Source of the DNA: Anaerolineae bacterium
Lineage (GTDB): Bacteria; Chloroflexota; Anaerolineae; DUEN01
Assembly: GCA_025060615.1 (NCBI GenBank)
Contig: JANXBS010000003.1
Location: 1-48,369, forward strand
Length of the DNA stretch: 48,369 bases
Direction of reading: 5' to 3'
Both the position numbers and the translations under genes were made by a program. Position 1 is the stretch's first letter. Every line of letters begins with the position of its first letter. The notes under the pieces are model-generated. The model worked only from the letters and a program-made list of their open reading frames with translations. It was not told the origin of the DNA and ran no database searches. Shown here one piece after another: positions 16,236 to 22,938 of this stretch.

Positions 16236-17312
16236 TCAGGATAGCCGATGGATCTCTCGAATAGGTCGCAAGAGGTCGTCCACAGGACGTTCCGGATAGG
16301 GAGATGGCCCCAGTGGATCGCTGGCAGGAGCTTGGGGATCCTCGAGCAGCCGAAGAGTGGTGAGGACACCATGAGCCAGCGCTTCCAGATGATATCCGCC
16401 CTCCAGCACCATCACGATCCTCCCTTGACACCACAGCGCGGCCAGGTCCAACAGGCGCCGAACGATGGTGGCATAGCCAGCGATGGAGAGCCGCATATTG
16501 GCCAGTGGATCGGCCCAGTGGGCGTCATAACCAGCGGACACCAGGATCAATTGAGGACGGTACCGCTCAGCGATGGGCAACAGCACCTCGTCGAAGACGC
16601 GACGGTAGCCTGCATCGCCGACGCCGGGCGCTAGAGGGACGTTCACCGTGAAACCCTGGCCGGCCCCGATACCGATCTCTTCCCAGTGCCCCGTACCGGG
16701 ATAAAGAGGAAATTGATGGATGGAGAAGTAGAGGACGCCCGGATCGTCGTAAAACACCTCCTGAGTGCCATTCCCATGATGTGCGTCGAAGTCCACGATC
16801 AGGATGCGATCCAATTGCCACTCCCGCTGGGCGACGCGAGCAGCGATCGCGATGTTGTTGAACAGGCAGAATCCCTCGGCCTGTTGGGGGCCTGCGTGAT
16901 GGCCAGGTGGGCGGATTAAGGCGAAGCCGTTGCGCACGCGGCCGGACAGCACCGCCTCTACCAGGTTGACCACTCCCCCGGCCGCATCCAGGGCAGCCTG
17001 ATAGGAACAGGGCTGGGCGTAAGTATCTGAGTCTATGTAACCGCCGCCTCGGCTGGCATAAGATTCCATCCGCCGTACGTGGGCAGGGGAGTGCACCAGG
17101 GTCAGCCGCTCCAAAGTGATGGGCGTCGCCTCGACGGAGAGAAACCGCTCTAGGATGCCGTCTCGTTGGAGCGCCTGGCTGATCGCCGTGATGCGCCGAT
17201 GAGACTCCGGATGGCCGGGCCAGTCGTGCTCCTGCTCCGAAGGGTTGTACACGTATGCAGAAGCCCGATGGGCTCGCTCGCCATTTTCCTCTGCTCTTCC
17301 GTGTCCATTCAT
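16236..17312 (-). CDS. Histone deacetylase family (AcuC / acetylpolyamine amidohydrolase-like) protein
   Basis: A 358-residue zinc amidohydrolase. The family landmarks are all present: RPPGHHAG with the catalytic His pair, DFDAHHGNGTQ with two metal ligands, VSAGYDAH with the third Asp region, and LEGGYH near the end. In bacteria such enzymes remove acetyl groups from lysines (AcuC) or from small molecules such as polyamines; the substrate cannot be told from sequence alone. ATG 17,312 is preferred over the frame opening at 17,348 because GGAGG precedes it by five bases and it lies 13 bp after the rph stop. It is probably co-transcribed with rph. Confidence 0.92.
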   Translation of the reverse strand: MNGHGRAEENGERAHRASAYVYNPSEQEHDWPGHPESHRRITAISQALQRDGILERFLSVEATPITLERLTLVHSPAHVRRMESYASRGGGYIDSDTYAQPCSYQAALDAAGGVVNLVEAVLSGRVRNGFALIRPPGHHAGPQQAEGFCLFNNIAIAARVAQREWQLDRILIVDFDAHHGNGTQEVFYDDPGVLYFSIHQFPLYPGTGHWEEIGIGAGQGFTVNVPLAPGVGDAGYRRVFDEVLLPIAERYRPQLILVSAGYDAHWADPLANMRLSIAGYATIVRRLLDLAALWCQGRIVMVLEGGYHLEALAHGVLTTLRLLEDPQAPASDPLGPSPYPERPVDDLLRPIREIHRLS

Positions 17313-17325
17313 TGCGTCCTCCAGT

Positions 17326-18066
17326 TCACCAGGGGATCCGCCATCCATCCGGATGTGCCGTCAAGGCCGCCCGTTGGGCGTTCAGCAGTTGCCGAATGCC
17401 CATCTCGGCCAAGCTTAACAATTGATCCAACATGGCGCGCGTGAACGGCTTCCCTTCTGCCGTCCCCTGGATTTCGACGTATTCGCCAGCTCCGGTCATG
17501 ACCACATTGCAATCCACGGCGGCCTGCGCGTCCTCCTGATAGCACAGGTCGAGCAAGGGCATGCCCTCTACTACGCCTACGCTCACAGCAGCTACAGGCG
17601 TTTTGAAAACATCTGGGCCAATGAGGCCGCGCGCAATCAGCCGGCTGAGCGTCAGCGCCACCGCCACCCAGCCGCCGGTGATGCTGGCCGTGCGTGTGCC
17701 GCCATCAGCCTGTAGGACGTCGCAATCCACGATCAGTGTGCGCTCCCCTAGGGCCTCCAGGTTGACAGCAGCACGCAGGGAGCGACCGATTAGCCGACGA
17801 ATCTCCTGCGTGCGACCAGAGGGTCCACGGTCCTCGCGCGGAGTGCGGACATGGGTCGAGCGCGGCAGCAGTGCATACTCGGCGGTAATCCACCCCTGGC
17901 CGCGGCCAGCAAGCCAGGCCGGCACTTGCTCCTCGACGGAGACGTTACAAAGCACGCGCGTGGCCCCGCAGGTGATGAGGACAGAACCCTCAGGATAGGT
18001 GATGTAATCCAGCGTGAAAGCGACGGGGCGTAATGCATCGGGCGCACGGCCATCAGGACGGTACAT
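17326..18066 (-). CDS. rph: Ribonuclease PH
   Basis: A 246-residue phosphorolytic 3'-5' exoribonuclease that trims the 3' ends of tRNA precursors. It opens with [12 protein letters not shown] and contains [27 protein letters not shown] and [17 protein letters not shown], the standard RNase PH core with its phosphate-binding and catalytic residues. Length and order match the family. ATG 18,066 has GAGGT upstream. It lies downstream of pcrA on the same strand with a gap of 101 bp that may hold its own weak promoter. Confidence 0.96.
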
Positions 18067-20543: not shown

Positions 20544-22550
20544 TCAGCCGACGATGTTGAGATACTCTCCACGCGTAATGGCCTCAGGCGCGATGGCCAA
20601 CAGCTGGAGCAGCTCCCCGATCAGCTCTGCCTTGCGCATTGCGTCTGCTGCCGACCAGGTGCGGCTCTTGATCTCAACAAAGGCACCGGCCTCCTCAGGC
20701 TTGGTGATGCGATCCAGGTTTAGCGCAAACTCCTCACCTTTATACCGGAAGCGATAGCGCGTCCGCCACTTCACGATCTCTTTAATCGCATCGGGCTGGA
20801 AATACTCCCGATAGAAGCGAAGCGAATGGGCTGCCTTGGAGGTGAATCGACTGCGCGAGAGGATGGCCATGCTCTCGTATTCTCGCTCCTTCTTGGGGCC
20901 GATCAGCGTTAAGGTGTATTCAGGCACCACTTCCAAGGTTGGCCCCAGCAGCCCACCTTCGTCATCGCTGCGCCTTTGTACCACGTTGTCCTCGCGGTAG
21001 CGCAGCACGCCTTGGCCAGGGCCATGGAAGATGAGATAAGTATCATACTGCTCGCGCACGCTGCGCTTGATCATCTCCAACGGCAATTTGAGGAAGCGCG
21101 CTTCCACGGCCGCCAGGTCGTCCACGCGCGCCTTCACCTGCACCTCAAACGTCTCTTGCTGTTCTAAGCCTCCCAACGCCAGGAGCTTGTTCAGCGGGCT
21201 CGACTCGCGCTCCTTCAGGAACGCGTTGACCCTATCAGCCAGGCGCTGTGACTCCTCTCTCACGCGCGGCCAGTCAATGGTCAACAACTGACCATCGCGC
21301 ACCAGTGGCCGTCCATCTACCCAGACGTGGACTACATCGGCGGCTTTGGCCGCGTAGACCAGATGAGAGTAGACATTGGCATCGCTCAGGTTGAAGCGGG
21401 GAATCGCATGGGGCGCGTTCGCGGAGATCACAGCAATGTCCGCACGTTTGCCTGGCTCCAGAGAGCCAACTATATGATCTAGGCGAAGCGCTCGCGCGCC
21501 TTCGATGGTCGCCAAAGCAAACGCCTCGTAGGCGGGCAGCGCAGTAGGCTCGTAGCGGGTTCCCTTAGGCAGGAGGGCTGCCAGCCGCATCTCCTCGAAG
21601 AGATCTTGATCGTTGTTGCTAGCGCAGCCGTCCGTGCCGATGCCCACGTGGATACCGCGGGCCCGCATGGTCACCACCGGTGCTACCCCGCTGGCCAGTT
21701 TCAAATTGCTGGTAGGACAGTGCGCCACGCCGACGCCATGGGAGGCCAGCAGAGCCATGTCATCCTCGCTGACGTGGACACAATGCGCAGCTACCACCCG
21801 CGCTTGAAACATTCCTAGACGCTCTACATATGCGATGGGCGATAACCCCTCGTGCTGTCGGCGGCTCTCTCTCACCTCGTGAGTCGTCTCCGACAGGTGC
21901 GTGAGCAATGGGACATCCCATTCCAGCGCCAGCGCTGTGGCCTCCTGTAAGATCTCGTCCGTGCAGGTATATGGCGCGTGGGGAGCCACGGCCGGGATCA
22001 CGCGCGGGTGATTTCGCCACCGCTCGATGAAGCGCCGACAATGGGCCAATCCCTCGTCATACGAGGCAGCGTCCGGCGATGGGAATTTCAGGATGGTCTC
22101 GCCCAAGATCGCCCGCAACCCTGCCTGATCGGTGACCTCAGCGATGACGTCTTCATAGTAGTACATGTCGCAGAAGGTCGTCACGCCGGATTTGATCATC
22201 TCCGCGCACGAGAGTAACGTCCCCCACCGGACGAAATCCGGCGTCACGCATTCGTGCTCCACTGGCATCATGTAGCCCAGCAGCCACACATCCAATCGCA
22301 GGTCATCAGCCAGGCCGCGGAGCAAACTCATCGGGACATGAGTGTGCGCGTTAATCAGGCCCGGGATGATGATCATCCCCTGGCAGTCTACCACCTCAGC
22401 CGCTTGAAAACGGCCCGCGATCTGCGCTGCCGGGCCCACGGCGACGATGTCACGCCCACGCACTGCCACAGCGCCGTCCGCAAAGACGTTGCGACGGCGG
22501 TTCATGGTTACGAGCGTGCCGCCGATCAGGAGTAGGTCCACCGCGATCAC
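20544..22550 (-). CDS. MTA/SAH-deaminase-like amidohydrolase fused to a CYTH-like domain
   Basis: A 668-residue two-part protein. Residues 1 to about 440 form a metal-dependent amidohydrolase of the 5-methylthioadenosine/S-adenosylhomocysteine deaminase and chlorohydrolase group: NAHTHVPMSLLRG, then APHAPYTCTDE, THLSETTHEV, AAHCVHVSEDD and GTDGCASNND supply the usual metal and catalytic residues. After a helical linker, residues about 460-668 look like a CYTH domain: an EVQVKA start, a RYREDN strand, paired basic residues in the middle, and a LDRITKPEEAGAFVEIKS strand. CYTH proteins (CyaB, thiamine triphosphatase) bind triphosphates through Glu/Lys/Arg in a tunnel. GTG 22,550 with GGAGAG upstream is the likely start. 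The deaminase call is firm at family level; the CYTH call is from pattern only. Confidence 0.85.
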   Translation of the reverse strand: MIAVDLLLIGGTLVTMNRRRNVFADGAVAVRGRDIVAVGPAAQIAGRFQAAEVVDCQGMIIIPGLINAHTHVPMSLLRGLADDLRLDVWLLGYMMPVEHECVTPDFVRWGTLLSCAEMIKSGVTTFCDMYYYEDVIAEVTDQAGLRAILGETILKFPSPDAASYDEGLAHCRRFIERWRNHPRVIPAVAPHAPYTCTDEILQEATALALEWDVPLLTHLSETTHEVRESRRQHEGLSPIAYVERLGMFQARVVAAHCVHVSEDDMALLASHGVGVAHCPTSNLKLASGVAPVVTMRARGIHVGIGTDGCASNNDQDLFEEMRLAALLPKGTRYEPTALPAYEAFALATIEGARALRLDHIVGSLEPGKRADIAVISANAPHAIPRFNLSDANVYSHLVYAAKAADVVHVWVDGRPLVRDGQLLTIDWPRVREESQRLADRVNAFLKERESSPLNKLLALGGLEQQETFEVQVKARVDDLAAVEARFLKLPLEMIKRSVREQYDTYLIFHGPGQGVLRYREDNVVQRRSDDEGGLLGPTLEVVPEYTLTLIGPKKEREYESMAILSRSRFTSKAAHSLRFYREYFQPDAIKEIVKWRTRYRFRYKGEEFALNLDRITKPEEAGAFVEIKSRTWSAADAMRKAELIGELLQLLAIAPEAITRGEYLNIVG

Positions 22551-22656: not shown

Positions 22657-22938
22657 CTACCAATCGTCCTCGTCTCGGTCTCTCATCCGGAAGCTATCGA
22701 GCTCATCTTCCTCCTCAGGCCATCCCTCCTCGTCTTCCTCGTCCTCATCGAACCACTCGTCCTCGTCTTCCAGGAGATCTTCGTCGTCCCAGATCTCCTC
22801 GTCCTCGACGACCTCGTCTTCGAGCTCTTCCATCGTCAGGCAGGAGAGCTGTTCTGGGTCCAGCTCGATCTCCTCTGCTGTGCAGTAATCGTCCTCCCAG
22901 AAGACGCAACGACGCTGCGGACATCGCACTCTGGGCAT
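22657..22938 (-). CDS. Small highly acidic protein with N-terminal Cys motif
   Basis: A 93-residue protein of unknown function. The first 33 residues carry four cysteines, C6-x4-C11-x7-C19-x13-C33, a spacing that could bind a metal (similar in spirit to the small DUF1540-type Cys proteins). From about residue 37 the chain is almost all Asp and Glu with a few Trp and Leu, so it is probably disordered and strongly negative. It is a real gene: ATG 22,938 has GGAGGT five bases upstream, and a near-consensus promoter stands at 22,998-23,026. Such acidic tails can mimic nucleic acid or act in chaperoning, but no role can be assigned. Confidence 0.75.
   Translation of the reverse strand: MPRVRCPQRRCVFWEDDYCTAEEIELDPEQLSCLTMEELEDEVVEDEEIWDDEDLLEDEDEWFDEDEEDEEGWPEEEDELDSFRMRDRDEDDW

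Follow-up and report, generated by a model that had tools for sequence, protein, structure and literature searches.

The CYTH proteins, which include the triphosphate tunnel metalloenzymes (TTMs), are widespread, but what they do physiologically is for the most part elusive (PMC8233210). SaTTM binds metal 1 through E7 and E135, whereas E5, E7 and E137 serve in its two-metal state (PMC8233210). In YgiF, site 2 consists of Glu-4, Glu-6 and Glu-162, and site 1 of Glu-160 (PMC4641920). Metal site 2 is the site implicated in TTM hydrolysis (PMC4641920; PMC8233210). The protein described here joins a tunnel of this type, altered at metal site 2, to a deaminase-like amidohydrolase. It is encoded in an Anaerolineae bacterium (assembly GCA_025060615.1) within positions 1 to 48,369 of contig JANXBS010000003.1, the 48,369 nucleotide stretch of DNA that was analyzed and is termed the window. 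A preliminary description, made from the nucleotide letters of this locus, had seen a complete amidohydrolase and a CYTH-like C-terminal part in a single frame; both domain identifications hold, and the quoted strings EVQVKA, RYREDN and GAFVEIKS are at residues 469–474, 517–522 and 622–629. The features of the gene are as follows.

20544–22550, minus strand: the fusion gene, 668 amino acids with a GTG start, a single intact frame that is uninterrupted in relatives.
21225–22550, minus strand: N-terminal amidohydrolase, MTA (5'-methylthioadenosine)/adenosine-deaminase-like, residues 1–442; Pfam Amidohydro_1 over residues 60–414 (E = 6.8e-76), PDB matches, Foldseek.
22338–22346, minus strand: HxH metal motif (H69, H71), invariant.
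21888–21899, minus strand: HxxE metal/catalytic motif (H218, E221), invariant.
21783–21785, minus strand: metal-site histidine H256, invariant.
21630–21632, minus strand: metal-site/catalytic aspartate D307, invariant.
20547–21164, minus strand: C-terminal CYTH/TTM tunnel domain, residues 463–668, from its model, fold match and hhalign.
21132–21146, minus strand: ExQxK (469–473), where CYTH proteins have their hallmark ExExK.
20988–21002, minus strand: RYRED (517–521), with the tunnel RxR kept.
20793–20819, minus strand: RFYREYFQP (578–586), a family-specific and (nearly) invariant helix, helical in both models.
20757–20771, minus strand: KxRxR (594–598), with the tunnel Lys/Arg kept.
20712–20720, minus strand: NLD (611–613), whose Asp is the conserved CYTH Asp and which aligns with LDE of ordinary CYTHs.
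20652–20675, minus strand: EIKSRTWS (626–633), ExK in place of the C-terminal ExE, followed by family-specific RTWS.

The C-terminal half is, by its predicted model, a CYTH/TTM tunnel. When this part was searched against PDB sequences, as a single sequence and as a profile, only chance matches came up, thus a fold comparison was needed. The AlphaFold model of the domain (predicted local distance difference test score, pLDDT, 90.7; predicted TM-score, pTM, 0.85) gives 112 chains at Z of 8 or more, among them PH1819 (2een) with a Z of 18.8 and 2.2 Å over 167 residues (VIA-align), and SaTTM (7ns9) with a Z of 17.5. The tunnel fold, which the preliminary description had proposed to look for in such a model, is therefore predicted. 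The window protein itself displays no Pfam CYTH match (cut-off 23.2 bits), and no other CYTH (PF01928) is found by Pfam in its genome. Of the 67 C-terminal domains aligned from relatives, 45 match Pfam CYTH, the best at an E-value of 1.4e-9, and there are full-length relatives above both Pfam CYTH cut-offs, e.g. L058 at 28.6 bits and L044 at 32.4 bits. A profile of the 67 domains aligned by hhalign with a profile of ordinary CYTHs of the same class gives E = 2.7e-9, and the motifs of the two line up.

Residues in the tunnel were counted over 123 distinct sequences, 122 of which cover the ExQxK and ExK sites. The two N-terminal glutamates of CYTH proteins correspond in the alignment to E469 and Q471, and the two C-terminal glutamates to E626 and K628. 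The ExQxK motif, Q471 included, and both E626 and K628 are present in 122/122 sequences, while K473, R517, R519, K594, R596 and D613 are retained in 123/123. None of the 67 aligned C-terminal domains has the tunnel Lys of the LTYK motif. The Lys/Arg side chains that grip phosphate and the site-1 Glu thus survive, and metal site 2 is dismantled. The ring of Glu, Lys and Arg anticipated in the preliminary description is thus there in its basic residues and site-1 Glu, but the second Glu of both ExExK and ExE is replaced, which had been missed. Canonical triphosphatase activity of the tunnel is unlikely because Q471 and K628 replace site-2 ligands implicated in hydrolysis. The charge-reversed Lys, the other strictly kept residues and two motifs peculiar to the family, RFYREYFQP and RTWS, suggest selection for a new role rather than decay. 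Three known types of tunnel protein were also compared. The CyaB class IV adenylyl cyclase motif HFxxxxExExK (PMC8233210) does not fit, since E463 and Q464 are at the HF positions and ExQxK follows. The thiamine triphosphatase motif W/YxRxR (PMC8233210) does not fit either, with V515 at the aromatic position, and no VTC polyphosphate polymerase is among the fold matches listed.

The N-terminal half has the complete metal and catalytic set of an amidohydrolase. H69, H71, H218, E221, H256 and D307 are invariant across 63 diverse members, and so are E98, R146 and H191, which presumably match residues of TM0936 that contact the ribose and the substrate. Among solved structures, PA3170 (4dyk/4gbd) is closest, together with an adenosine deaminase from Xanthomonas (4dzh) and a homologue of MTA/SAH (S-adenosylhomocysteine) deaminase from Chromobacterium (4f0r), with E-values of about 1e-94 to 1e-96 to 4dyk, 4gbd and 4f0r. 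The best fold matches of this half are 4dyk, 4dzh, 3lnp and 4f0s, and Foldseek gives a TM-score of 0.97 (on target) and 40% identity with 4dyk. In a midpoint-rooted tree, the fused clade together with L181, an unfused relative, joins three PDB MTA deaminases and not other amidohydrolases (support 100/78). Homology makes MTA or SAH a plausible candidate substrate. The curated NCBIfam cut-offs for MTA/SAH deaminases are however missed (NF006549, 482 of 540 bits; NF012037, 310 of 779 bits). K155, in the active-site loop, is present in 79% of members, and Asp or Glu stands at this place in the solved MTA deaminases.

The fusion is widespread in the phylum. With the last 223 residues as query, relatives turn up in 182 of 298 genomes from the same class, and a profile of the C-terminal part has matches in 89 of 400 genomes sampled across the phylum. 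The fetched copies number 144, representing the 123 distinct sequences. The amidohydrolase precedes the C-terminal part in the same reading frame in 141 of the 144 and the remaining three run off contig ends. This count, proposed in the preliminary description, rules out two genes joined by a frame error, since the same uninterrupted architecture recurs. Three candidates for a free-standing C-terminal domain (L080, L211 and L212) are each cut by a contig end. In the tree all 63 fused rows lie on one side of a single branch (support 100/99). The fusion arose once, mostly in Chloroflexota, and genome labels of its members include Anaerolineae, Chloroflexia, Ardenticatenia and Thermoflexus. The nearest unfused relative of the deaminase half in the tree is L181 (47% identical), followed by the solved MTA deaminases; L181, at positions 1249–2844 of its locus, is from a genome of the same class that does not have the fusion. 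Two fusions carry labels outside the Chloroflexota, L059 4268–6307 (Deltaproteobacteria) and L060 6666–8636 (Bdellovibrio). Both are from metagenome-assembled genomes and may reflect transfer or mislabelled bins.

The proposed function is as follows. The N-terminal half would be a metal-dependent deaminase with a 5'-substituted adenosine as substrate (5'-methylthioadenosine, 5'-deoxyadenosine or adenosine) and the inosine form as product. The tunnel, with its Lys/Arg ring and site-1 Glu and without metal site 2, may bind a phosphate-rich ligand such as a nucleoside triphosphate, tripolyphosphate or polyphosphate, which it probably does not hydrolyze in the canonical way, and it could serve as a ligand-sensing or regulatory module for the deaminase. 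Non-hydrolytic ligand binding is the most likely role of the tunnel because the Lys/Arg ring and site-1 Glu are kept and metal site 2 is lost. A nucleoside deaminase whose sensing module is a tunnel that binds a phosphate ligand without hydrolyzing it is put forward tentatively, at somewhat short of an even likelihood. The preliminary description had suggested that the protein could process or sense a nucleotide triphosphate; the fixed ExQxK and ExK weaken the first, and sensing is the better half of that guess. The full-length model has a pTM of 0.88, compared with that of the C-terminal domain alone, which suggests that the two halves pack in a defined way.

Several points weigh against this proposal. 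It presupposes a coupling between the deaminase site and the tunnel, and the loss of canonical ligands does not exclude other chemistry. In addition, the genome of the window encodes MTA phosphorylase (mtnP), SAH hydrolase (ahcY) and purine nucleoside phosphorylase (PNP), and because the first two are present a pure MTA/SAH role would be redundant. In favour of the proposal are the complete and invariant deaminase site, the single clade of the fused rows and the comparable pattern in Vtc4 (PMC4641920), and also that neither a PF00962 adenosine deaminase nor another close homologue of the deaminase half is found in this genome.

The neighbourhood of the gene varies among relatives. In 20 loci, most of which carry labels of Chloroflexales families, the fusion gene is followed on its own strand by coaE, the gene for dephospho-CoA kinase (L064, L068, L070, L071, L074, L076, L078, L080, L082, L085, L087, L090, L094, L096, L098, L100, L101, L103, L105 and L110). 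The two genes often overlap or abut, with a spacing of −67 to +88 bases; the start call at −199 in L080 comes from an over-long open reading frame. In four loci (L037, L039, L044 and L046) mtnP is 62–97 bases downstream on the opposite strand and thus convergent. In the window a PcrA/UvrD-type helicase gene begins 24 bases past the end of the fusion gene on the same strand, and is followed on that strand by genes for RNase PH and a histone-deacetylase-family protein (16236–18066, minus strand). Just upstream of the fusion gene is a 93 amino acid open reading frame (22657–22938, minus strand) with a weak DUF1540 match (E = 2.6e-4, slightly under cut-off) and a very acidic tail rich in Asp and Glu.

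Other explanations of the tunnel were considered. The protein may be bifunctional, a deaminase with a working but altered one-metal triphosphatase, pyrophosphatase or phosphotransferase. E469, E626, D613 and the basic residues of the tunnel do not vary, the plant TTM1 and TTM2 proteins, in which a kinase is fused to a CYTH without ExExK and ExE, still act on pyrophosphate (PMC8233210), and Vtc4, a polyphosphate polymerase of yeast, functions on site 1 alone, site 2 being absent and basic residues replacing the acidic patch (PMC4641920). Absence of the LTYK Lys in the 67 aligned sequences argues against such activity, which is considered unlikely. It is rather more unlikely that the tunnel is a dead scaffold which serves only in dimerization or protein contacts. 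Med18 of Mediator shares the fold and has apparently lost activity (PMC4641920), Mediator chains are present among the structural matches of the C-terminal model, and RFYREYFQP and RTWSxxDA, motifs particular to the family, could form interfaces, but a pure scaffold has no need of tunnel Lys and Arg residues that are invariant in 123 sequences. That a single substrate spans both halves, with the tunnel holding the phosphates of a 5'-phosphorylated adenine compound that the deaminase acts on, is improbable, for although K155 is common and coaE follows the fusion gene in 20 loci, K155 is not invariant and its loop is otherwise MTA-deaminase-like.

Each domain is of a known kind, and what appears new is the pairing of deaminase and CYTH and the fixed ExQxK/ExK tunnel. 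In one literature collection, searched for CYTH with amidohydrolase and for Chloroflexi with deaminase, neither is described, an absence and not a proof, which agrees with the remark in the preliminary description that no enzyme with this pair was known. The annotation of the family can be refined, as over half of the genomes sampled from the class encode it and its members score best against amidohydrolase models only. A CYTH that is permanently fused to a metabolic enzyme, and whose catalytic residues are replaced alike in all members, points to a single pathway and a single class of ligand, and a single purified protein would suffice for a test. More broadly, it is possible, though doubtful, that a tunnel without metal site 2, sensing a phosphate ligand or holding a substrate, controls a nucleoside deaminase across much of the Chloroflexota. 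If true, this would be an undescribed tie of adenosine-derivative salvage to the level of triphosphate or polyphosphate.

The MTA/adenosine deaminases PA3170 (4dyk/4gbd), the C. violaceum protein (4f0r) and TM0936 (1p1m) are similar to the fusion protein over the whole N-terminal half, including the metal and catalytic set. Unlike the fusion protein, the solved enzymes have no C-terminal domain, and G92, E133, D160, T197 and Y394 are specific to the fusion family. SaTTM (7ns9), PH1819 (2een), YgiF (5a60) and ThTPase (5a64) share with the fusion the eight-stranded tunnel, the RxR, the K/R pair, the conserved Asp and the first Glu of ExE. Compared with these four, the fusion has ExQxK for ExExK, ExK for ExE and no LTYK Lys, and RFYREYFQP and RTWS are extra motifs relative to CYTH/TTM proteins. 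Vtc4, as described (PMC4641920), resembles the fusion tunnel in that metal site 1 is kept and the acidic patch with site 2 is missing. Plant TTM1 and TTM2 are likewise multidomain CYTH proteins with lost signature motifs (7z67, Z of 15.6); their partner domain is a P-loop kinase, whereas in the fusion protein the partner is a deaminase.
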